Assembly (NCBI GenBank): GCA_034687125.1
Contig: JAQGBZ010000183.1
Span: 1-64,000 of the forward strand
From: Neelides folsomi
Taxonomy: Eukaryota; Arthropoda; Collembola; Neelipleona; Neelidae
Reading direction: 5' to 3'
Length of the DNA stretch: 64,000 nucleotides
Below, piece by piece: positions 7,941 to 58,501 of this stretch. Position numbers and translations under genes: made by a program. Every line of letters starts with the position of its first letter. Position 1 is the first letter of the stretch. The notes beneath the pieces are model-generated. The model worked only from the letters and a program-made list of their open reading frames with translations. It was not told where the DNA came from and did not search any database.

Positions 7941-10900
7941 ATGTCTGGGATTATAAATAATACTCGGATAAATGTGGCCATTCGTATACGACCTCTTATT
8001 AAAAGAGAAATTGATGATAACGGTAAGGATTGTTAATTATTAAATTTTTATATTTTTATGTTTTATACGAGACATTTAAATATGGGCTTATAGTTTATAA
8101 TATATTTATAATTATAGTTGTTATTTTTATTAATTTTGCAGCGAACATTCATTGGGTGTCGAATGGTAATCATGTGAAGCAGATTGATCCTTTAACTCAA
8201 GAAGCTTCTACGGGGAGTTATAATTTTGACAACGTATTTGGAATATCTTCTCAAACTGATGAGATTTATAGTCGAATTGTTTCTCCGATTATATTGAAGG
8301 CATTTCAAGGCTTCAATGGAACCATATTTTGTTATGGCCAAACATCCTCAGGTATAACATTATTATTTTAAAAATATAGTTTTCACACAGCAATCAAAGC
8401 ATTAAATATTATTAAAATTATTTAAGTAATATAACATGATAAACTGATAGAAAATTGCATCATTAATGATATTTTTACTTTTATAGGAAAAACATATACC
8501 CTGTATGGCGATGAAGAAAGGAATCAACTTGGGTTTATTCATTTTATGTCCGACCAGCTCTTTGAGATTTCAAAAGATGGGAATTACATGATCAAGTAAT
8601 TTTGAAATAAATATAACTTGTAAATTCTATTGTTTTTTTCGTTATATAAAATGACTTCTAAATATAATAAATTCGATTTTTTAATTTTATAGAGTTGGGA
8701 TCTTGGAAATTTATAACGAACATCTAAGCGACATGCTCGAACCTAAGAATAAAGTTGAAATTAAAGAGATTGACGGAGTTGTGACACCTACAGGAATGAA
8801 AGAAATCCCATTGTTTTGCAAGGAAGATCTGGATAAATTAATTGTTGAGATAAATTCGAAGAGGATTGTTGGAGAAACGAACATGAATACTAAAAGTTCC
8901 AGGTCTCACACCATTGTAAGATTGACCATAGAAAAGGCTTCAACTCCTGTGGCGACGAAAGCATTCCTCAACCTTGTTGACCTTGCCGGCTCAGAAAAGG
9001 TCGGACAAAGTGGTGCTGAAGGACAAAGGTTCAAAGAAGGAATGAACATCAATGCTTCTCTGAGCGCCTTATCTAAAGTTTTCCACGAGTTAAGTCAGAT
9101 TGATAACAATTCCCACTGCGTGGGATCAACTTCTCCTCCACTCCAAGGAACAAGCTTCAGACAGTCATTTTCTATTGGATCTGAATCGCAGTCAATGAAA
9201 GCGCCCTTCAAAGCAAAGCCAAAGTCGAGGTTCGTTAATTTCCGAGACTCAAAATTGACGAGAATTCTTCAAAGCTCTCTTCAGGGAAATGCTTACATCA
9301 TCATGATTTGTAGCATAACACCGGCAAGCATCGATGAGACGAGCTCGACATTAAGGTTTAACACTATTGTTATTTATAGGTTATCTTATTATACATAAAT
9401 ATTAACGATTATTGGTTTACTACTCAAATAACATTTATTCGATATTTGGATTCAATATTTAATAATATGAATATTACATTAGATTTGCTAAACAAGCCAA
9501 GTCGATTAAGGTTGAACCCGAACTGAATATTCTTCCATTTAACAAGAGAAATAAAGAAGAATACGAAAAGATCATTGAAGAATTTAAAACACAACTCATT
9601 GTAATATTTACTGAAATTATCCTATTAGCTGATACTTCATAAAAAACTTGATTTGATAACAATATGTAATCTTACATAAGTATGAACATATTACTAATTT
9701 TTATTATAATGTATGATTTGTATGTTTGATTATAGGCTAAAGATGAAGAGAAAGGGGCTCTTCAACGGCGCCTTGAACATGTCATGCGATTCTGTGGAAG
9801 CAATGAAATAACTGAATTGGAAATGAAACCTCCAATTAACGTAATTTTTGCATTCGTTTTAGCATCCACATTTTCCCAACTTTAATCCCAAATTAAACGA
9901 ATCATATATTTATTCCATCAATTTAATAACTTTACAGAGACGGCAAACAGTTTGCGGAACAGAGTTAAGAAATGAAGGGAAGCATCCGAGTCAAATTGTT
10001 TTCAATCAAATGCCAAAGACTTTTGACATTTTTGACAAGCCGAAAGATAATAAAGCGGACATCAGCGGTCTTTTTGATACATCTGAAGAAGGAATTAGCG
10101 GCGAAAGTAAGTTTTTTAGAGAAAAACATTTATGTATGGTATAAGTATAAAGATTTAAAAGTTAATAATTTTTTTATTGTAGAATTTCAATCTCATTCCG
10201 ACACTATCAATTACTTTAGTCGTAAATGCGAATTTGTTGACTCTTCTGATGATTCTCTTGAAATTCCAAAAGAGAGTATTTTACCTGCTAAATCAAGTGG
10301 TACTGATAATAGGTAATTAATTTGTTTATTAAAATAATATTACATATTCAGAGTATAATTCTTTTCATTCCAGATTCCAATTTACATTATATTTCAAATA
10401 TGAAACGAAATTGATTAATTCGTTAACTATTTAAGGAAACGAGAAGGGGAAAATCTTAATGAAGGTCTGCCAGCAGTAAAAAAGTTCAAGCAAGAACCTG
10501 ATGAAACTCCTGTGAAAATTTTGAGGATCCAACGAGGCGTTCTTAGAGCCGAAGTCGAATATCAAGGAATTGAATATGAAGAATTGCGCAATTTTCATAA
10601 GATGGAATTGGTAAGAATTGATTTATTAAATTATTTTCTAACACAATTAGTATAATGGATTTAATTCAAAATTATTTATTTCATCTTTCATTTTTAGGAA
10701 GAAAAAAGCAAAGAAATCGAAGCATCCCAGCAATACAATAAAGAACTTGAAGACAACATATCAAAAGCATATTCAGAGATGCAAGAAATTAAAAAGTCAA
10801 TGGTTGAGCTTCAATCTCGTTTGAACGAAGATCAAGAAAAGTTCAAGGAACTTCAAAAGAATAAAGAATTCGAAGTTGACATCATGAACCAAGAAGTTCA

Positions 10901-13760
10901 AAAGAAGAATAAAATTATTGCCCAACTAAAGGAGTCTCTAAACCAAGCGTCAAGTAAAACACCGACGGACTCAATTGCTGTTTCACTTCCAATCTCCACA
11001 TCTTCTCAGACTGATGATGGGACCTTTTCTCCTTTGGAATTTTCTCTCAAAGCCATTGAGGCTGAATGTCAAACCGAACCGGGCAGAGTTCTTCAAAGTC
11101 ATCAATCCTTAGACCCAATCACCTGGGACAGCTTTCAAATGGACCGAGATTGTCAAACTGATATTTTTGCCACTTCAGTTTATCTCGATCAAGCTCTGGA
11201 TCCAATTGTATGGGACAAACCTCAATTGGACCAAGAGAGTCAAACTGAAGATTTAAAGCCACAAATTGTTCAATCAGATAATCAGAGTCAAACGGAAATC
11301 CAAGTTATTCATGCCGAAGTCGATGCAATTGTATGGGAAGTGATGCAAAATGAAGAGGGGAGCCAAACTGAGACCTTTGCTGTTGTTCACCAAGGTGTGG
11401 ATCCAATCTTTCCAATTAGAGAAATTGGAGATCATAAATCATGTCAAACTGAAGAGGAAATGGAAATCAAACCCGAAGTTAATGAAATTGAATGCCAAAC
11501 TGATTGTAATTACAAGGATCAGGGTTCAGATCCGATTTGTTCAAAATTGGCAGATCAAGCTTCAGATCCAATTGTATGGGAGAAAAATCAAAGTGAAATG
11601 GGCTGCCAAGTGGTACCCTCAATCATTCATCAAGCATCTGATCCCATCAATTGGGCCGATTTCATGACTGAAAAGTTTTCTCAAACTCAAACGAGTGTTG
11701 TTGATTTGGGATTGGATCCGATTTCATGGGAGTTTTCTCAATTTGCTAAAGAATGCCAAACGGAATTGAAAGTTAAGGATCAATCATTGGATCCGATTTC
11801 ATGGGAATTTACCATGTTTGGAAAAGAGTGCCAAACTGATGAAAAGAATTATCATGATCAAGCTGAAGATCCTGTTATTTGGGAAGCTCAACCAGTCTTT
11901 AATAGCGAAAGTCAAACAGAAATCGTGCAATTAATGGACAAATCACTAGACCCGGTTTATTGGCAATGTTTTCAAAAGGCGAGTCAAACTGAAACAAAGG
12001 TCTTTGTACATCAAGGATTGGATCCAATTCTATGGAAAAGTACGAATGTGGAGAAGAGTAGTCAAACACCACAGAAAAACGTGTTTCATAAGGCTGTTGA
12101 CTCCATGTATACCTGGAAATATCTTGAAGGTAATTTTATAATTATTAATTATATTTCATTTATTATATTACAATCAATGTAATTAATCTAAATATAAAGT
12201 GTTAAAAGGAGACGTAATAATGATATGATTTTTATTTTTAAAGATTCCTTCGGTGAGAAAATGAGACTTAAAGATGTAGAAATAAGTCGATTGAAAGAAT
12301 CATTAATGAAAGAGAAATTGAAAGCAGAAGAGTCGAGCAAATATGGAAAAAATAAAACTGTTGAAATTGCAACGCAAGCCAAACCTATTATGACCCACAG
12401 ATCAACAGATGCTAGTGACACTTGGGAACTTATGAAAAGTAATGTTATTATTTAGATAAAATGACTATTGAGATTGTCTTTAAAATGTAAGGTATACTAT
12501 AATTAATTTTTATTTTTACAGAGGATCTTCACAACTCGTTAATATACAAGAAAAAGGCAATGATCGACTTTCAAAATTTCCGTGTTGCATCAGACGAACA
12601 GATTAAGAGATTTCAATTGGACCTTAAAAAAGAAACTTCTGAAAATGTGAAATTAAATGCAAAGGTAAAGAGTGAAAAAGTTGACGAAATTGATAAGCTA
12701 TGAATTTATGAATATTCATTTTAATCTCAGCTAAACTTGAAATAAACTTAAATTCTTTTTATTTTAGAATGAAGATCTTCGAAAATTGATTGCAAAAATT
12801 AGAGAAGAACATGAAAGAGCAAAAGAAGATCAAAATGTAATTAATTTTTAAAATTCATCCTGTTAAATTATAAATTCTTATTTATGAATCGTATAAATTA
12901 AAATTTATGTTAAATGTCTTTTTTAGGAAAATGGGATTCAATGCGATTTATTGATGGAACTCGTAGAGCAATCGAAGAAGGAAGACATCGAACTCTTTCC
13001 GTGGATTCCGAATGTTAAAAAATTGGAAAAGGAGATCACATCGCTGAAGTTAAGCTTGAACCAGAGCAAGAGGGATGTTAATGCTAAAGTGAGAGAAGAA
13101 GTTGAAAAGGAGAAGAAGAAATTATCTGAACTTTATAGTGACAAAGAAGGACCCCCTAAGAAAAAGTTTTACGCTCCACCACAAGTGAAACCTCCGCAAT
13201 TGCCTGTTCCGAAATTGTTAACTACACCAATAGCTGCACCTCAATTACCATATGAAAATCCTAAATATTCTCTCCGTTACAATGCATCGAGACATTGTGC
13301 CATGGCGTAAGAATTTTTTACTTTATGTTTATTTATTTTATTATTGTTAATAATTTAGTATAGTAATTTTAATATAATTTTGCATTTTTTAAATTGTAGA
13401 TCTCGTGGTCTCAAAGTGGATGTTCCAAGTACAAGTTCTCTAACAAATGGAAAAGCAGAAGTTCCTTCGATTCCACCAACTCCTCTACCAGAACCCCAAT
13501 CGAGCAAGAATGGAGAACGCGGTGAAAGAATGACTCGATCAACTTCACGGAAATCAATAAGCAAATTGAAAGTTGAATCTTCAGTTGAAATTCCTCAGTC
13601 GAGCGGAGACGCTGTAAACGGTGAATTGAATACCCGACCAACTCGAAAATCATTGCGCAAATCCAATCCAAGAACAAATTATAATTTGTTTAATTTGCTC
13701 GACGATGAGGAGGAAGATGAATCATTTTCGGACATGCTCCTTTCGCTCGTTAAAAAATGA
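7941..13760 (+). CDS. CENPE: Kinesin-7 / CENP-E-like motor with a QTE repeat array in the tail
   Basis: Plus-end-directed microtubule motor of the kinetochore, needed for chromosome alignment. Fifteen exons, with lengths summing to 4341 nt, give 1446 residues. The N-terminal motor (about 1-400) has RINVAIRIRPL, P-loop GQTSSGKTYTL, switch I NMNTKSSRSHT, switch II LVDLAGSEKVGQ and FVNFRDSKLTRILQSSLQGN. Between SALSKVFHELSQ and RFVNFRDSK there is an insertion of about 50 residues relative to vertebrate CENP-E. Coiled coil follows. Residues about 690-1050, in the large exon 10698-12129, form an array of alternating QT[E/D] and DPI.W motifs. More coiled coil and a basic Ser/Pro-rich C-terminus come after. 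It is much shorter than vertebrate CENP-E (about 2700). Kinesin-7 assignment is strong; true CENP-E orthology is likely. Confidence 0.88.
11000..12070 (+). repeat. Protein-coding repeat array in the kinesin tail (QT[E/D] ... DPI.W units)
   Basis: Within one exon, about 14 copies of [SC]-Q-T-[E/D/P/Q] occur, typically every 26-31 residues, alternating with about 13 copies of [L/S/V]-D-P-I-x-W. Examples are ECQTE, DCQTD, ESQTE, GSQTE, FSQTQT and SSQTP; LDPITW, LDPIVW, SDPINW and LDPISW. One unit is degenerate (GCQVV). A fragment of the pattern continues in the next exon (ATQAKP, STDASDTWE). Adjacent units differ at many codons, so the array is old or under protein-level constraint, not a fresh DNA satellite. 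Confidence 0.85.
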
Positions 13761-14749: not shown

Positions 14750-16473
14750 ATGTTTTGTCGAATTCAGCACAGGTCTCGTAATTTGTTAAAAAGTGTTAAG
14801 CTTTACGCTGAGTTAAGAATGAATCCTGTCAGACTCGAAAGGAAATTGAGCGGCTCTGGGGGTTCTGTAAAGTCAATTGGGACACATGATGGAAAATTCC
14901 ATTGTGACGAGGTTCTGGCTTGTTTCATGCTCAAACTTTTGCCGGAATACTCCGATGCACAAATAATAAGGTAAAATAAATATTATTTGTACGTCTTTTT
15001 TGCAATAATATTGGTATTGGCTAATTAACCATTTGATGACAAATAGGACAAGAGATGAAGAAGTACTTCGAACCTGCGACATTGTTGTTGACGTTGGATC
15101 AACTTATGATCATTCACAATTACTTTATGATCATCATCAAAAGTAAGAAGCTTATAAAATGATTATAATATATCCTACATAAAATCAAATACTATTTTAT
15201 AACTTAATACAAACACTTTTAGGTCTTTCGAGCACACAATTAGTACTCTTGATCCTTCCAAGCCATTTAAAACTAGATTGAGCAGCGCTGGGCTCATTTA
15301 TTTCCATTATGGTATAACATATTTATTCTGTTAAAGACTTTCTATATATTAATTTATGATAATCATTTAAGTAATCATAATTATAACCAATAACTTGACA
15401 AAGAACTATATCTAATTGTAAACATTTTAAATCTACTTTATAATATTTTCATTATTATAGGCAAAGCGGTTATTGCTCAAATATTGGACCGAAAAAAAGA
15501 TGACGAAGCCGTTATCCAACTCTACGATAAATTATATGAAAATTTTATTGAAGAAATCGATGCAACTGATAACGGAATAAGTTTGAATGAACACCCCATG
15601 AGGCAATCCATCACTAATAAAATACTTTTAAATCCTATATTTAACATGCAACTGAATTTTATTAAAGTTTTATTTAAAGTTTTATTGTTTAGATATAGAG
15701 TTACGACAACGTTAAGCCATCGTGTTAGTATGATGAACCCGAGTTGGAGAGATTCAAATCCTGACGAATGGCAAGGTTTTCAGAAGGCTCTTAAGCTTGT
15801 TGGAACAGAGTTCATGGAAAGAGTTCACTATTATTCTTCTGACTGGTGGGAAAGTTTTGCTTTGGTTAGAAGTGCTGTCGAGGCCAGATTTGAGGTTTAA
15901 CGATATAACAAGTTATTATTTTATAGAAATGCATATAATGTTCAAGAAAAATTTATATATTCGATTTGATTAGGTTGATGTAAGCGGAGAAATAATCGAA
16001 TTTTCAAATGGAGGCTGCCCATGGAAGGACCATTTGGCCCAAATTGAAAAGGAATTTGCACTTGAAACTAAAATTAAATTTGTAATTTTTCCTGATAAAA
16101 ATGTCATGTGGCGAGTTCAAGCAGTGCCTGTTTCTCCTGATTCGTTTATTCTAAAAGTTCCTTTGCTCAAAGATTGGCAAGGTTTGAGAGGCAAAGAACT
16201 TCAAGAAGTTAGTGGGATTCCAACAATCAACTTTGTGCATGCCAATGGGTATGTCAAATTTGTTCAATTATCTATGTTCATTTTTTATCGTTTTCTTAAA
16301 TATATAAAATATGTTTAGATTATGAAAATCAATAGGTTTTTAAGGAATAAAGAGAGGTTAAGGTTAAATCAAATAATTACAAATAAATTGACAGGTTTAT
16401 TGGTGGAGCTGCTGAACGAGAAAGCGTTATTGAAATGGCAAGAATTAGCTTGGAGAGAAACAGTTTTATCTAA
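14750..16473 (+). CDS. MYG1: MYG1 exonuclease (DHH-like, UPF0160)
   Basis: 3'-5' RNA exonuclease of nucleus and mitochondria that coordinates RNA processing in both. Seven exons (14750-14970, 15047-15142, 15223-15311, 15461-15602, 15693-15894, 15974-16248, 16395-16473) give 367 residues, close to the human 376. The metal-site motifs are present: [31 protein letters not shown]; also [40 protein letters not shown] and [14 protein letters not shown]. The N-terminus ([19 protein letters not shown]) is basic and amphipathic, consistent with mitochondrial import. The segment 15603-15692 is open in frame but adds 30 residues absent from the family; removing it as a GC-AG intron gives a family-length join (NEHPM-RYRV). 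I therefore treat it as an intron. Confidence 0.92.
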
Positions 16474-16671: not shown

Positions 16672-17496
16672 TTAGATGTTCTTAAATCTGTATTCAAGTT
16701 CATATATTCCAACCGTTTCTTGAGCTTTTTCATCATATTCAACCCAGTCCTTTTCTCCCAAATCGACCGGTGTGAAAGAAGTAGAAGAATTGAGACATTT
16801 TGCGGTCCATCCGGTCTATAAAAATCATACATGGTTTTATAATTAATTATTTTTAATCATTTCATAAAATAACAAGATTGACTCAAAATTAGGAAGAATG
16901 TTTAAGTTTCATTTACCCTTGGGTCAAAGTCAATAGGTTCGCACCCTCTGCATTCAAATATCACGACAGATTGGAATTCTCCGTCTTTCTCTTCATGGAA
17001 TACATATGGTTTGATTGCGTTTTCTTCAATAACTATTGAACGACAAAAGCTCTGATTACTGACGATGTCAACGAAGAGTTTAAAAGATTTAAAGAACTCA
17101 CTCAGGGTGATGTTATCTCTGAGGCAAACTTTACATTTTGCTACAAGATGAGCTGTCGATCTTCCTTTCTGGGTTTCATGTGTTTCGCAAAGTGTCACAT
17201 ACTGCCACTTGTCTGGCACTTCTCCACACTGCGTGCATTTAATCTAAAAACGAATATATTTTACTATATCAGTTAATAGATTCTTGTAAGACGAGTTAAA
17301 AAATTAATATCTAATACCTTTAAATACCAACGGAAATCTTCGCCATCAGGAAAAAATTCTTTCACATTCTCCAATGTGCACTTAAACTCCAAGCTGAATC
17401 TCTGAAACAATATTAAAAAGTAGATAAATACAATGTAAAGAGCGTTAATTCCTACAAATAATAGTAAATATGTTAATGATTAATGATTACCCCCAT
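16672..17496 (-). CDS. CZIB: CXXC motif-containing zinc-binding protein (UPF0587 family)
   Basis: Small zinc-binding protein conserved across eukaryotes; function unclear. Four exons (17496-17491, 17401-17318, 17243-16917, 16815-16672) sum to 561 nt, 186 residues. The first coding exon is only six bases (Met-Gly) and gives MGRFSLEFKCTLEN, matching the family start MGK...LE/KATLEN. Both zinc CxxC motifs are visible (KCTQCGE and KCKVCLRD), as are FECRGCEPIDFDPR and the C-terminal EKDWVEYDEKAQETVGIYE. It is about 25 residues longer than the human protein because of an insertion around FFKSFKLFVDIVSNQSF in the third exon. It is tail to tail with MYG1 (about 200 bp) and head to head with the cytochrome b5 gene. 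Confidence 0.92.
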
Positions 17497-50480: not shown

Positions 50481-51586
50481 TCATTCTTTTCTCATAGCGA
50501 GCATTGTGTTTATGTCCCAAATAATTTGACGTAACTGATCAACCGTATCCTTTAACTGTCGATTTCTTGTTTTTACTTGCTGTTAAAAATAAACAATGTC
50601 CACTTAAAAATGTTATAATTTATAATAACGATCAATTTGTAATTTTTGAAAGTATTGTGTTACCTCTAATGTTTCTTGATGTTCTTCCATTGCTAATTTG
50701 TATACTTCGCTATTCTTATTTTCTTCAATGCTGTAAATGCTTAACTCTAATGTGGCTAGTGTAACTGGATTCTAAAATTTAAAATTAGTTTTTATTATAT
50801 GTAAAGTGAGTTGAATTATTAAAGTAAAAAATACACATTTTACTTGTTTTAATTACTGTTATAGTTTTTTAATTACCATAAATTGATCATCTGTTGTTGG
50901 AAGACTCTTCTCGATTTGATCATAAATAACTCTCAGTCTTTTGAATAGCATTCTAATACTTTTCAGAGTATCAGTATATTTAGGTTTCCTATCGAGTGCT
51001 GCAGCGGATTGTAATTTTCCGTCTGGCGGCTATTAAAAAATGATTATTTACAATTTTAGATCAAGCCAAGTAACTTAATACAGATCCTACATAGTTCATT
51101 AAAAATGACCCTTTTAGCATTGACATTTAGTAATTGGCTAATTAATTTACCTGTATATTTCTTAAAGTGTTAAATGTTTCAGTGGTTCGAGAAACAATTT
51201 CTTGGACAGATTCTTGACCCAATCGGCAAAATGTGGCAATATTAAATTCCTTTTGTTGCTGTTGTTGGGAGTTTTGTTGCTGTTGAAGTTGCTGTTGTTG
51301 TAAAGCATTTTGATTATTGGATTCTCCGACTGAACCAGGACCAGAAGAATTCATGTGATGAACAGGAGGAGCATTAATTCCACTTCCACCCATTTGGCTT
51401 TGATTCATTGGAACTTGAGACATTTGAGACTGTTGATTGCCAACAAAACCAGAAAAATTTTGCTGCTGTTGAGGAATCTGAGCATGTTGCTGCTGCTGGT
51501 GAAATTGGAGTTGATTTTGCTGTTGCTGCTGCTGCTGTTGTTGTTGCAGCTGTTGTTGCTGCATTTGATGTTGCTGCTGCATTTGC

Positions 51587-51618
<32 letters not shown>

Positions 51619-52044
51619 TTGCTGTTGTGGTATCATATTTTGATGATACTGAGGAACCTTTATAATCAGAAAATGGCTTAATAAATACATCGTCCTTTAA
51701 CAAAATTAAAATCTTCAATAACACCAATTAAATAATATTTAACATATATAATATAAAATTAAATCTTACAATATTTGGTCCAATGTTTCCCATATTTGGC
51801 TGTTGCTGCATATTCATATTCTGTTGGTTGCTGAAATGATGCATTTGATGTTGTTGTTGCTGCTGCATGTGCTGCGGCATCATAGTTTGACCTGAACCCA
51901 TTTGACCCTGTTGCCCTCCCTGGTATCCTATTAAAAGAAATATTCAGTTATTGTCGTTTATTACAATTTATTATTAAATATTTATTCCATACCTTGCTGC
52001 ATCATTTGCGGCATATTATTTTGAGTGTTATTGAAATTTGACAT
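50481..52044 (-). CDS. MED30: Mediator subunit 30, glutamine-rich
   Basis: Metazoan-specific subunit of the Mediator head, linking activators to RNA polymerase II. Six exons (52044-51993, 51927-51770, 51657-51151, 51029-50877, 50771-50664, 50579-50481) sum to 1077 nt, 358 residues. The conserved part is EFNIATFCRLGQESVQEIV and TTETFNTLRNIQ, then LFKRLRVIYDQIE, and the C-terminus DQLRQIIWDINTMLAMRKE; all match human MED30. The N-terminal half is Gln/Met-rich with long poly-Q coded by CAG/CAA, roughly doubling the human length (178). Poly-Q expansion of this N-terminus is common in insects. Confidence 0.92.
51470..51630. repeat. CAG/CAA trinucleotide tract coding poly-Gln
   Basis: Interrupted CTG/TTG run on the plus strand, which is CAG/CAA in MED30. 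Mixed codons suggest an old, relatively stable tract. Open frames on the opposite strand here are its shadows. Confidence 0.9.
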
Positions 52045-53161: not shown

Positions 53162-55765
53162 TTAAACTCGGAGAAAGTAGTCCCTTTGTCCAATTTTCGG
53201 TCTGATTCCCGAATAAGGGTCAGCTGTTGGATTCCCCCCGAGGAAGGCATTCATATCAAGCCAATAATAAAGCCCATTGGGTTTATTTGGCCTCTGAGTT
53301 GTTCCAAAAATGTTAAAGAGGAGATTGGACTCTGATGGCGTGACCTCTTGAGTTCTTGGAGTAGTCACGAGATTATTGAACGCCCAATTGTTGTTGGGAT
53401 TCAAAAGGGACGCGAGGTCAAATGGTGCCTGTGTCGGTGGAGGAGCCTGAGTTGGAATTGCCCTCACACTATTTTGATTCCTCGCGTTCTCCAGCGTCAA
53501 TCCAAGATTGAACAATTGAGCAATGAGGTCTGAGGGATTTTCTGTCGACGCTGCCACCGTGGTGGTCGATGCAACCGGTGGTGGTGGCTGAGTTACTAAA
53601 AAGTTCTGGAATGGATTTGACCCTTGATTATTGAGATTATTCATCTGAGGGAAACTCTGTTGTAAATTGGATGTAAACACGTTGAGCATGTTTTGAAGCA
53701 AAGGATGGAGAGTTGTCGTTCCACCAGGGATTATTGGCTGAGGTGTCGTCGTGGACGTTGTTGTTGTAGCCCGGGTGGTCGTTGTCGTAGGACGAGTTGT
53801 TGTGGTCGTTGTTGTTGTCGTTGTCGGGATGGTCGTGGTTGTTCCAGGGGTTTGGTTGTCAATTAAAGAATAAATACTTTTTAGATCCGCATCCGAAAGA
53901 CCTTTTTGAGTCACTGGGGGTTCTTGTTGAGCCACGTGGGATTGGGCATTGGATGGATTTCCTTGTTCTTCAAATTGAACCCCTTTGAACAGATTTTCAA
54001 GAAGGGCCAATTGAAGTTGAAGACTTTCTAAACCTCCTCCTTCTCCGCTTCCGCTTCCAGTCCCTCCGAATAATGAAGGATTTGTAGGTTGCTGAGGGTG
54101 CTGGGGCTGTTGAGGTTGTTGGGGTTGAGGTTGTTGAAATAAATTTAATGTGTTCAATAAATCAGAAATTCCACTAACTCCGCTATCCGATGCTCCGAAA
54201 TTCAAAAAAGGATTTGTCGAATTTGCAGATTTCATAACTTGTTCTATAACTTTTTCAGGAGAGTTTGAGTTTGAGCTTTGGGTTGTGACTTCAATGATTG
54301 GCGGGAGTGTCGTTCTTGACCTTGTTATTGTCACTGTTGGTTTTGACTTGATTGTCGGCGTTGGCGTGACTAAAACCAACCGATTCTCCTCGCGAATATT
54401 ATTTATTTTATCGGCAATGGAGGTTGGCACTTTTGCGGGTTTCTCCGTCGTGGACGTTTTTCTCACTCCGGACAGCCTCGGGGTTGGCCGTCTTGATAGG
54501 AGAATTCTTGTAGGTCGCTGAGTTGTCGTAGACGTTGTAGACGTCGTGGTCGAGGTTGACACACTCATTGTAGGGATTGTTATAAATTCGTCAGATTCCT
54601 CTAGTGGCTTTGGTCTCATTGTGATGATTGTGAGTGATGGTCTTCTTGTGGATTTTCCCGATGGAGTGGAAGTGATTGGGTTAATTGTCGTCGTCCACGA
54701 ATCTCTTTCTGGTTCTCGATCATAGTTGTGATTTGGGTGATTGGCTTGCGGCGAGGAAACTGAGGTTGACATTGTCATTGTAGTTCTCACATTCACAGGA
54801 GAACCTATTTTCAATGCTGTTGACTCGGCTGAAATGGCTGAATCATCATTGAGCAACGGCGGTCTTTTCCTCCTTAAATCTGGAACAATTGGAACTTCCC
54901 CAAAGGCATCGCTCAATTGATGTTCAATTGAGACGGTTTTGTCCTCGGGTAAATTATTTACACTACCTAGGATCGAGTCGGAAGTGAGCAAGGGATGAAG
55001 ATGGGGAATTTGATCAAAATACAACGAGTTTCTCAAGTCGGAGGAAATAGGGGTTGATGAATTAATGAATGGATTGGCGCTTTCTCCTTGTAGTAAGTCA
55101 CCAATTGACTCATTCCTTCTTGAATCAAACGAGAGGAGTTGATCTTGTCTGGTCTTAACTGATTGGCGGTTCAAGTTGTTGTTGGGATCTTTCAATCTCA
55201 AAACTGTTTTTCTTTCATATTGCGGATCCTCCAAATATTTGTATAATTCCGCCCTATTTGATTCCTCTCGCCAGGCACTTTGGTCCACTAAAGGCTCCGG
55301 ACTATTAAAATTAATTTTTTCCTTGCTGGTGGCCTTTTTAGAGCTTTCTTTGTCAATCACACCACGGACAGCGGAAAGGGTGACTTCCCCGCTCTTGAAC
55401 TTTTCTTTAAATACTCCGTTCCTCAAATAAGTTCCGTTCCCTTTACGAACCCGCGTTCTTCTAAATTTCTTTGGCTGGACATTGAGCTTTTCCTCCGTTG
55501 CATTGTGTTTATGAATAATCTGACCGTAGCCGAAATCTAAACTGCCTTTATAATTGTTGTCTTCTTCAACTGTCGAGTCTTGGATTATTTGCTCTGGAAC
55601 AAAAATTCCTGACCTTTGGCTAAATTTCCCTCCTTGTAAATGTCTCCTTCCGCGAAGGGCCCATGGGTCAGAATAAACTCTGAACGAAGTCACACCGCCC
55701 TCGCCCCACTGCACAATACACAATTGGAGGGAGAGGAGGAAAAGACAGGAATGGACAAATCTCAT
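53162..55765 (-). CDS. Large secreted Thr/Pro-rich protein, uncharacterised
   Basis: One intron-less open frame, unusual beside heavily spliced neighbours. The frame is open from Met at 55819, but the second Met at 55765 begins a good signal peptide (MRFVHSCLFLLSLQLCIVQWG), so I prefer it: about 867 residues. After the signal come basic stretches (RRTRVRKGNGTYLRNG) with possible dibasic cleavage sites. Thr/Ser/Pro-rich zones follow (runs of STTTSTTSTTTQRP and TTTTTTTTTTRPTTTTT), which are likely O-glycosylated, then a Gln/Pro segment. The C-terminus GLYYWLDMNAFLGGNPTADPYSG is well structured and non-repetitive. The composition suggests a mucin-like extracellular or cuticle-associated protein. 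I do not recognise a domain. Confidence 0.8.
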   Translation of the reverse strand: MRFVHSCLFLLSLQLCIVQWGEGGVTSFRVYSDPWALRGRRHLQGGKFSQRSGIFVPEQIIQDSTVEEDNNYKGSLDFGYGQIIHKHNATEEKLNVQPKKFRRTRVRKGNGTYLRNGVFKEKFKSGEVTLSAVRGVIDKESSKKATSKEKINFNSPEPLVDQSAWREESNRAELYKYLEDPQYERKTVLRLKDPNNNLNRQSVKTRQDQLLSFDSRRNESIGDLLQGESANPFINSSTPISSDLRNSLYFDQIPHLHPLLTSDSILGSVNNLPEDKTVSIEHQLSDAFGEVPIVPDLRRKRPPLLNDDSAISAESTALKIGSPVNVRTTMTMSTSVSSPQANHPNHNYDREPERDSWTTTINPITSTPSGKSTRRPSLTIITMRPKPLEESDEFITIPTMSVSTSTTTSTTSTTTQRPTRILLSRRPTPRLSGVRKTSTTEKPAKVPTSIADKINNIREENRLVLVTPTPTIKSKPTVTITRSRTTLPPIIEVTTQSSNSNSPEKVIEQVMKSANSTNPFLNFGASDSGVSGISDLLNTLNLFQQPQPQQPQQPQHPQQPTNPSLFGGTGSGSGEGGGLESLQLQLALLENLFKGVQFEEQGNPSNAQSHVAQQEPPVTQKGLSDADLKSIYSLIDNQTPGTTTTIPTTTTTTTTTTRPTTTTTRATTTTSTTTPQPIIPGGTTTLHPLLQNMLNVFTSNLQQSFPQMNNLNNQGSNPFQNFLVTQPPPPVASTTTVAASTENPSDLIAQLFNLGLTLENARNQNSVRAIPTQAPPPTQAPFDLASLLNPNNNWAFNNLVTTPRTQEVTPSESNLLFNIFGTTQRPNKPNGLYYWLDMNAFLGGNPTADPYSGIRPKIGQRDYFLRV

Positions 55766-57808
55766 CTTTCCAAGCTTCCTCTTGAGGAACTCACATTCTA
55801 ATAACAATTTTCTTACCATTTTGACCGACCAAGTACACTAATAATTATTTTAAAATCCACTTCACTTCTTTGGCCCGGCATAATTGGTGTAGTTTAGAAC
55901 GAGGGGAAACTTGATTTCATTTTCTACGAGGAGCAAAGTAGAACTGGTCACTTCACCTTACTTTCCGTATACTTAAAGAGAGAAGTAGGTCTGGCGAGAG
56001 ATGAAAAGGAAGATGAGATGGAGGGGTAATGAGTCTCTATGCATCTCCCTCTCACCTCCCCTATCTTAATATTCAATTCCTTATGCTCTTGGTGCACCAA
56101 AGGAGTTCTTCCCATGAAGATAAGAACAAGCAGTTTGACAGTAACACTCCTATCCTTCACATTATAAGTTGATAAGTAAGGGAGCCGCTTTTCTTATTTT
56201 AACAGTCACCTCACGGATCTTCATTAAACTTTATTAATTTCAACCACCTGAGTTCATACAAGTAATAATAATAATAATATGGATGTAGTTTACTGCAGTT
56301 TGCTAGGAATTGACTGAGAATAAAAATGGCTGATGAATTCTGATGAATAAGTTCAGAGGGCAAATCGAATTCTACTTAGGAGGAGAATTCGATTGAAGTG
56401 CCTTGGACCAAGATTCCTCTGTTGTAACTCTCTCTTTCCGTTTGGCAAGTTTTTAACTTTTATTACACATGCCGATTGCCCTTTGAAACCCTCTGAAGCT
56501 GTGAAGGTGTGTGTGTGTGTGGAAGTTGACTGGGCCTCTCATAGATTTCTAATCTTCAGAACCTATATTTTATCTATTTGTCTTCCCACTTCCACCCTCT
56601 CACTTCTCGACCACTCCCAAATGCGGATCCGTTAAGAGGAAAGGGCTATTTAAATCTAGTAATTTCCCCTTGTCCGTTCATGAATGGGTGGATTAGGCGA
56701 GTCAAAAGTGAGACAATTTGATAACTTATTTGCCAATTTCATTCATCAATCGAGTCTAAAATGAAATATCACACTTTGAGATTTTCACACGAGTTTGATC
56801 TGCTCTGTAATAATTATGAAGTTAGCGTGTAAAAGCAATTTCTGCAACATGGTCATTATAATTTTTTGAGAATTTAAGCAGCGTTACTTTTACTCAAATG
56901 TTTTGACCATTTATACTGATACCTTCGACCCTTCAAAGTGATTGCATTTAAATTAATTAGAAAATTACATATATTAGGAAAGCTTAAGTTGTGTAATTTT
57001 CGACTTTGGAAGGTTGTTAAAATTGGTCAAATGTGTAATTTTTTAACTCAATTTTTTTTACTTTTTATTTCAAGTAAAAGTTTTTTCCCTTTGCACGCAT
57101 ATTCAATTTAAACGGTTGGGTCTTTAAGCTTTTAATGAGTTAAAAGTGAATTTGGGATATTAAGCATTATTCTTATTGTAATTAAAGATGTCGTTTGTCG
57201 GGGTTCAAAGTTTCATTCTATTTCTGGTCCAATTAATATGTAAGTTTGTGTATATTGAGAGATCTTATAGTTAAGAGAGGGAAGAGATATATTAAATTAT
57301 TATGGAGGTCTTCAGTGGTATGGTAGAGGGTAATTGGGTCAATTCATCGCTCCATGTTTTTACTTTTTCTCGTTGGACCACTTTGGTTTATTGCTCAAAC
57401 CAGCTTTACTTTTCTTTCCTAGTGAATCTAATTCGATTAATATGGTCTTACCTTTGAAGTCCATGTGTGAATGCGTAGTATTTAACAAATTTTTAATTCC
57501 TCTTCCTTTGACCCTTCCTAATCGACTTATACAAGATGAGATTCCTAACGAGGTTCTATATTTCTATCATATTCTTATATGATTATATCTTAAAACGGAC
57601 ATTTCCTATGTAGTAACTTCGGCTTTGAATGATCTTGATTTTAATTCCTTTTCATTTCCACCTCAGCTCACCTGCCCCTTGTTTACCAATCACGACTCAT
57701 TTTAATGATTTTTTTGTATTTACTCTCTCTAGACTTGACCTCAGCCAGGACGCGAGCGATCAGTTTGTGTGGACGTGAGAACTCGATTCATTTTGAATAT
57801 TAATCACA
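55766..57808. other. intergenic with simple repeats
   Basis: About 2 kb between the divergent secreted-protein and MED18 genes. It holds a short TAA run (about 56263-56279) and a (GT)7 run (56507-56520). Several 70-80-codon open stretches (for example 56393-56635 and 57334-57582) show no similarity or splice support. The region just before 57809 is less AT-rich and is likely the MED18 promoter. Confidence 0.45.
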
Positions 57809-58501
57809 ATGGATATTGAGCCAAGTTCCAAGCAGCAGGAAATCCAATCCCTTTCTGCCTTAGAAGCCTTAACCGCAGCTCATAAAACCAATCTCATCCC
57901 CAACCAAGAATATCTTCTCCAAGGGTCCATCCTTGACAACCACGTGGAATTCCTTCTCCATAGACTCCGAGGTCTTTGTGACAATGTTGACATTGGGCTT
58001 GAGAAATTTCATGATCATGAAATGTGCTTCGTTTTGGGTCATCCTCCTGGTCATCCTGGACAAGGGCTTTCTCTCCGAGTGAGAAGAGCTTTGGATGACC
58101 CCCATGTCCCGATGCATTTGAGATATGTTGGCCAACCCGAATTGGGAGATAAGAATCGGCCCACAATGGTGAGAAGCATTTTGGATGTGGCTTGTGGCTC
58201 GGAAGTTGTGGATTTTCTTAAGGAATTGGGATGCAGGAAGGAATTTGATTTCGTGTCTAAAGGCTACATCTTTCGGAAGGGACGTCTCAAGATTGTTGTG
58301 GCCAAGATGTTTAGATTGGAACCTGGGAAAGTTCAACCGAGCGAGCCTGTCCTCGAACCATTAACCCAATCGCATTATGTGGAGATGAGCGTCGTCACAC
58401 CCTCTGGACAAGATGTGATTGGGGAAGATATGAAGAACCTTTCAGAACAACTTAAACCACTTGTCACACTTGATAAAGTGGATCACCGCCGAATGCCGTG
58501 A
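57809..58501 (+). CDS. MED18: Mediator subunit 18
   Basis: Head-module subunit of Mediator. Single exon, 230 residues, near the human 208. It matches throughout: EYLLQGSILDNHVEFLLHRL, RGLCDN, FHDHEMCFVL, LRYVGQPELGDKNRPTMVR, EFDFVSKGYIFRKGRLKI, VEMSVVTPSGQDVIGEDMKN and LSEQLKPLVTLDKVDHRR. The fold is a pair of beta barrels that bind MED20. It is unusual for this region in having no intron, but it shows no sign of being a retrocopy (no internal breaks, no visible A tract). Confidence 0.95.
   Translation: MDIEPSSKQQEIQSLSALEALTAAHKTNLIPNQEYLLQGSILDNHVEFLLHRLRGLCDNVDIGLEKFHDHEMCFVLGHPPGHPGQGLSLRVRRALDDPHVPMHLRYVGQPELGDKNRPTMVRSILDVACGSEVVDFLKELGCRKEFDFVSKGYIFRKGRLKIVVAKMFRLEPGKVQPSEPVLEPLTQSHYVEMSVVTPSGQDVIGEDMKNLSEQLKPLVTLDKVDHRRMP

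Follow-up and report, generated by a model that had tools for sequence, protein, structure and literature searches.

A two-motif array with putative LC8 docking sites in the tail of a CENP-E-like kinesin

The consensus of 41 LC8 motifs has [D/S] at position -4, K at -3, any residue at -2, [T/V/I] at -1, Q at 0, [T/V] at +1 and [D/E] at +2 (PMC3078936). In the same source, phage display gave the motif V-S-R-G-T-Q-T-E, in which -5 is Val, Met, Ile, Leu, Arg or Lys, and LC8 motifs are described as often lying in disordered regions that adjoin coiled coils. The LC8-binding domain of ASCIZ/ATMIN has a disordered region with numerous QT-type sites. Human ASCIZ has 11 TQT motifs and three SQT/VQT motifs, and these three also had to be mutated to abolish LC8 binding (PMC5963919). 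The ASCIZ linkers range from 3 to 41 residues, and the five tandem LC8 sites of Nup159-Dyn2 form a rigid stack (PMC10046861). Weak LC8 motifs in ASCIZ and Nup159 are aided by the presence of multiple sites per chain (PMC12057147). In the WWC1/KIBRA family, which has single sites, LC8 binds S-Q-T-D preceded by D at -4 and L at -5 (PMC5746249 Table 1). LC8-GFP is present at prometaphase kinetochores and spindle poles (PMC6607443). The mitotic SKAP:Astrin complex may include LC8, and its kinetochore recruitment is linked to CENP-E (PMC4843017); LC8 is there part of another complex, not of the CENP-E tail. The tethering of CENP-E and its matching with dynein at kinetochores are an active research topic (PMC10711656).

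We analyzed a window of 64,000 nucleotides (the whole stretch of DNA under study), in which the tail of a kinesin-7-like protein carries an array of [SC]Q[TV] sites with a second motif, DPI.W. Like ASCIZ/ATMIN, the array has many QT-type sites, some of them SQT. In contrast, ASCIZ anchors are mostly TQT, whereas only S or C precedes Q in the array; its spacers are 8-29 residues. Within their available text, the ASCIZ accounts (PMC5963919, PMC10046861) do not mention a companion such as DPI.W, which the array possesses. Tandem sites are common to the array and Nup159-Dyn2, but the spacers of the array are mostly 16-21 residues and its anchors are S/C. The array sequence LDQESQTE is close to the WWC1/KIBRA site, although that family does not have such an array. 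If the LC8 reading of the QT sites is true, about 15 sites would make this a large array of its kind. LC8 bound to a CENP-E tail was not found in the titles and abstract openings of the literature searched, a collection with most subscription journals outside it.

The kinesin-7-like gene lies on the plus strand at 7941-13760 and was assembled by hand splicing at GT/AG junctions: 15 exons give a single frame of 1446 aa, open to TGA. The motor domain (aa 1-370) is encoded by exons 1-5 (7941-9528, plus strand), and the exon 4 frame matches Pfam Kinesin with an E-value of 1.8e-50. When the motor was compared with PDB kinesins by phmmer, two CENP-E entries were the top matches among PDB chains (214 and 212 bits), and OSM-3, from the next family, scored 182 bits. 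Thus, the motor is nearest to CENP-E among PDB kinesins, which supports a kinesin-7-like assignment by sequence and agrees with the CENP-E-type motor of the preliminary description. Human CENP-E is much longer than the 1446-aa kinesin here, and we know of no array of such kind in it. The gene described here differs from CENP-E by the array and by an insertion of about 40 residues in a motor loop. This insertion (aa 270-312, 9099-9227) is rich in S and K and aligns to a gap in the two CENP-E structures, which have only a few residues there; judged by its position, it is presumably in loop 12.

The array (aa 687-1064; 10995-12128, plus strand) is housed entirely in exon 10 (10698-12129) and contains 15 [SC]Q[TV] sites and 13 DPI.W-type sites. 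The QT positions run from 11007 to 12063. Among the 15 QT-type sites, 14 are [SC]QT and 12 are [SC]QT[ED]. Together with one decayed site in exon 11, there are 14 DPI.W-type sites: nine match DP[IV].W exactly, one reads DAIVW, two have DPI but lack the W (aa 822 and 865) and two are decayed (aa 1055 and, in exon 11, aa 1120). We shuffled the 378-aa region 100,000 times. The maximum number of [SC]QT[ED] was 3 (12 observed), that of DP[IV].W was 2 (9 observed) and that of bare QT was 13 (15 observed). Thus, the two-motif array in a CENP-E-like kinesin is confirmed, as the preliminary description had it with about 14 QT[E/D] motifs and DPI.W. Its period of 26-31 residues does not hold, however: the QT-to-QT spacings are, in order, 21, 28, 29, 16, 25, 27, 17, 37, 25, 25, 25, 27, 24 and 26 residues, and 10 of these 14 intervals fall at 24-29. 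The reported alternation of the two motifs stands in part. All ten W-bearing copies of D-[PA]-[IV]-x-W are upstream of an [SC]Q[TV] site, but 5/15 QT-type sites lack such a copy. Likewise, the array trails into the next exon, as was claimed, but by just one decayed unit (TQA...HRSTDASDTW, 12363-12425, plus strand). In the other frames of the window, no convincing unit was found (best other E-value 1.7). A pattern search of prokaryotic and viral contig collections gave one viral and three genome matches and no relative; these collections are uninformative for animals.

The units with a W are all on the plus strand. In eight of the ten, the distance from W to Q is exactly 10 residues: HQSLDPITW...CQTD (11100-11162), DQALDPIVW...SQTE (11187-11249), HAEVDAIVW...SQTE (11310-11372), DQASDPIVW...CQVV with a degenerate anchor (11553-11615), HQASDPINW...SQTQ (11628-11690), DLGLDPISW...CQTE (11703-11765), DQSLDPISW...CQTD (11778-11840) and HQGLDPILW...SQTP (12009-12071). 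The distance is 11 residues in DQAEDPVIW...SQTE (11856-11921) and 8 in DKSLDPVYW...SQTE (11937-11993). Eight units could be aligned without gaps, and their DNA identity is 58% on average (range, 47-75%). Unit DQSLDPISW...CQTD is 75% identical in DNA to the unit preceding it, which suggests one later duplication for these neighbors (Q941 and Q966). Tandem Repeats Finder gave no repeat within the array among 150 of its 153 rows, listed in positional order.

To describe selection on the array, we compared pN/pS between copies. Over the 15 QT-type sites, pN/pS was 0.33 at -1 to +2 and 0.75 at -5 to -2, and outside the QT core it was 0.95 at -9 to -6 and 1.12 at +3 to +6. At single positions, -4 to -2 were slightly constrained (0.59-0.70) and -5 was not (1.23). 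The footprint of constraint thus extends N-terminal of the QT core, as in the LC8 motif. Over the eight aligned units, pN/pS was 0.26 at -14 to -10, where DPI.W lies, and 0.53 across all 21 columns. Values of pS in these column blocks were 0.57-0.77, which is near saturation. Because synonymous sites are near saturation and the motif cores are kept, the array is held by selection at the protein level; it is an old repeat. The constraint on DPI.W is no weaker than that on QT. Two features of codon usage were observed. At unit position -18 (11100-12071), H or D is found in 8/8 aligned units, encoded by CAT or GAT (four each), a one-base exchange. At -1 (11007-12063), the residue is S or C, encoded by AGT/AGC, TCT and TGT/TGC codons, and T (ACN) is used in 0/15 exon 10 sites though it is one base away from several of the codons used.

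On this sequence evidence, the best reading of [SC]QT[ED] is that of putative LC8 (DYNLL) docking sites, a reading that we hold tentatively, at somewhat less than even confidence. The flanks fit published preferences. At -5, V/I/L/M/F occurs in 9/15 sites, including four F, a residue outside the list of PMC3078936; at -4 a polar residue occurs in 13/15, at -3 K/R in 7/15 and at +2 D/E/P in 13/15, counts that are not independent at each position because the repeats share ancestry. We scored these flanks with rules of our own making from PMC6607443 and PMC3078936. The 28 non-binders were taken from PMC6607443 (18 from Table 1, which has 31 rows, and 10 from Table 2, which has 12) after exclusion of rows lacking a Q-T/Q-V anchor and of one duplicate, and one duplicate MUC4 row was excluded from the binders. 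The mean score was 4.47 for the 15 array sites, 4.47 for 18 strong published binders, 3.25 for four weak binders and 2.88 for the non-binders. Because the rule weights were fixed after the binder papers had been read, the match with binders is partly circular. Random flanks scored 2.32 (sd 0.37), with a maximum of 3.77 among 20,000.

The lack of constraint at -5 and its slightness at -4 to -2 speak against LC8, and position -1 points the same way. S or C is present there in 15/15 array sites and T, V or I in 0/15, and S or C is found in 0/18 of the strong binders in the rule-score set. When -1 was included in the rule score, the array (4.47) was near the non-binders (4.23) and below the strong binders (6.47). 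SQT peptides can nevertheless bind LC8: those of WWC1, WWC2 and WWC3 bind with values of 0.45, 32.7 and 5.34 μM (PMC5746249 Table 1). Therefore, S at -1 does not exclude binding. Of five SQT peptides that have a Q-T anchor in Tables 1 and 2 of PMC6607443, one binds weakly and four do not bind. An SQT site of Chica is below the LC8Pred threshold. We also built a matrix from 31 published binder 8-mers, with approximate background frequencies. Mean matrix scores were 9.71 for binders (leave-one-out), 5.62 for the 28 non-binders and 5.25 for the array. Because every one of the 28 non-binders also has a positive score, the positive scores of 14/15 array sites mean little. Without -1, the array (6.11) is between the non-binders (4.41) and the binders (7.71). 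The seven C sites average 4.01 and the eight S sites 6.34; because no binder in the matrix has C at -1, the low scores of the C sites are no ground for excluding them. The preliminary description had called for a score for each QT motif, with poor scores for nearly all counting against LC8. On our own matrix, not LC8Pred, this is partly the case: 3/15 array sites reach the lower quartile of the binders, as do 9/28 non-binders. Thus, its LC8-like sites are favored by the flanks and by the binding of the WWC1-3 peptides, but not by the residue at -1 or by the matrix level, which is that of the non-binders.

The same observations give some weight to the reading of DPI.W and [SC]QT[ED], about 10 residues apart, as one composite motif for one partner. 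This partner might be a protein of the kinetochore or spindle, or a diverged paralogue of LC8 whose pocket takes a small S/C at -1. The strict S/C at this position (15/15), the grouping of the array sites with LC8 non-binders by the matrix, and the place of the W-bearing copies (10/10 ahead of [SC]Q[TV], 8/10 at exactly 10 residues) would suit it. However, the lean of the flanks to LC8 preferences would be left unexplained, we can name no ligand, and the 5/15 QT-type sites without a W copy show that QT can persist alone. We regard this reading as rather unlikely, although it deserves consideration. A cluster of ATM/ATR-type phosphorylation sites is extremely improbable: S-Q is present at 8/15 sites, but C-Q at the other 7/15 is not phosphorylatable, and both the T and the D/E that follow Q are conserved.

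DPI.W was described as a second repeat, as regular as QT and with no known ligand. As an observation this is borne out by its pN/pS, and we likewise know of no ligand for it. It does not resemble an LC8 site itself (best matrix score -1.48 among 13 segments). We considered whether DPI.W is a W-acidic-type motif of the kinesin light chain kind, by which the tail, with LC8 or without it, would recruit kinesin-1 or be regulated by it. In its favor, a hydrophobic I or V stands two residues before W, and D/E follows W in 7/10 W-bearing copies. In the W-acidic peptide of SKIP, TNLEWDDSAI (PMC6214655), acidic residues are on both sides of W. In contrast, an acidic residue directly before W occurs in 0/10 copies here, and the conserved D-P would be unexplained, so that this is very unlikely. 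Mimicry of the dynein intermediate chain, whereby DPI.W would occupy the Tctex groove while LC8 takes QT, seems less probable still. On that chain, the segment that binds Tctex directly precedes the LC8 segment; peptides of this kind are in PDB entries 2pg1 and 3fm7. A likeness by eye failed, however, when the upstream segment was compared with the unit profile: the permutation p-value was 0.21 for the fly and 0.29 for the mammalian sequence.

The conserved W and the near-regular units of 25 residues would suit a folded repeat domain in place of docking motifs. AlphaFold2 gave a mean pLDDT of 28.8 for aa 876-1064 alone (189 residues); the model had a single helix and three strands, each of them below 50. 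A pair of units, given six alignment rows, reached a pLDDT of 52.0 and had no secondary structure. Because the input was one or six sequences, the missing fold argues only weakly for disorder. The spacers are near neutrality, and a PDB search with a profile of the aligned units gave a single match at chance level (Nup54, E-value 3.4). Thus, we consider a folded domain improbable. A PDB search with exon 10 alone gave four matches with E-values of 0.29 or worse, all in the coiled-coil part, and the ten weak Pfam matches of the exon 10 frame were all below the cut-off. Heptad-like stretches flank the array on the plus strand. The one preceding it (aa 600-683, 10734-10985) has a heptad contrast of 0.46 (shuffle p = 0.0007), and a short one following it (aa 1065-1098, 12129-12344), which spans the intron before exon 11, has a contrast of 0.51 (p = 0.032). 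The contrast of aa 1128-1215 is moderate (p = 0.041), and it is non-significant within the array (p = 0.17) and just past the motor (aa 370-425, p = 0.40).

The preliminary description proposed that LC8 dimers zip the tail into a rigid rod. When each site is taken as 8 residues, the spacers of the array are 13, 20, 21, 8, 17, 19, 9, 29, 17, 17, 17, 19, 16 and 18 residues, mostly 16-21. ASCIZ linkers of 6 and 9 residues gave homogeneous LC8 complexes, and linkers of 12 and 16 were in between; the border was not set (PMC10046861). Because most array spacers are longer than those of the homogeneous complexes, the rod is doubtful, and it would not be expected unless DPI.W stiffens the spacers.

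Between its heptad-like stretches, the tail carries a ladder of short linear motifs that is old and under selection and has no predicted fold, though the absence of a fold is weakly shown. Kinesins are usually parallel dimers. If the motor dimerizes in this manner, two chains would offer paired sites. The [SC]QT[ED] sites may then be individually weak LC8 (DYNLL) strands that act by avidity, with each LC8 dimer clamping two chains, and DPI.W, usually 10 residues ahead of Q, might bind a second partner or hold the two chains packed from one LC8 dimer to the next. Such a scaffold would be flexible and occupied in part, not a rigid rod. A full ladder of two hubs on a plus-end kinesin, in which an undescribed DPI.W motif at its near-fixed offset of 10 residues and the LC8-type QT sites let a second partner and LC8 dimers alternate along a parallel tail duplex, is unlikely as a whole. 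If true, it would make DPI.W a new short linear motif and would mean that a CENP-E-type motor is tied to the dynein light chain, or that LC8 is a glue of the tails. A tail with about 15 LC8-type sites would allow the role of LC8 to be tested, as a link from kinesin-7 to dynein or merely as a means of pairing tails.

Other genes were observed in the window. Downstream of the kinesin gene are a MYG1 exonuclease gene (15394-16318, plus strand) and then a CXXC zinc-binding protein gene (16902-17243, minus strand). One open frame of 891 aa with threonine-rich tracts is present at 53162-55837 (minus strand) and has no Pfam match at an E-value of 0.001. Two genes encode Mediator subunits: Med30, which contains long glutamine runs (51142-51696, minus strand), and Med18 (57797-58501, plus strand).
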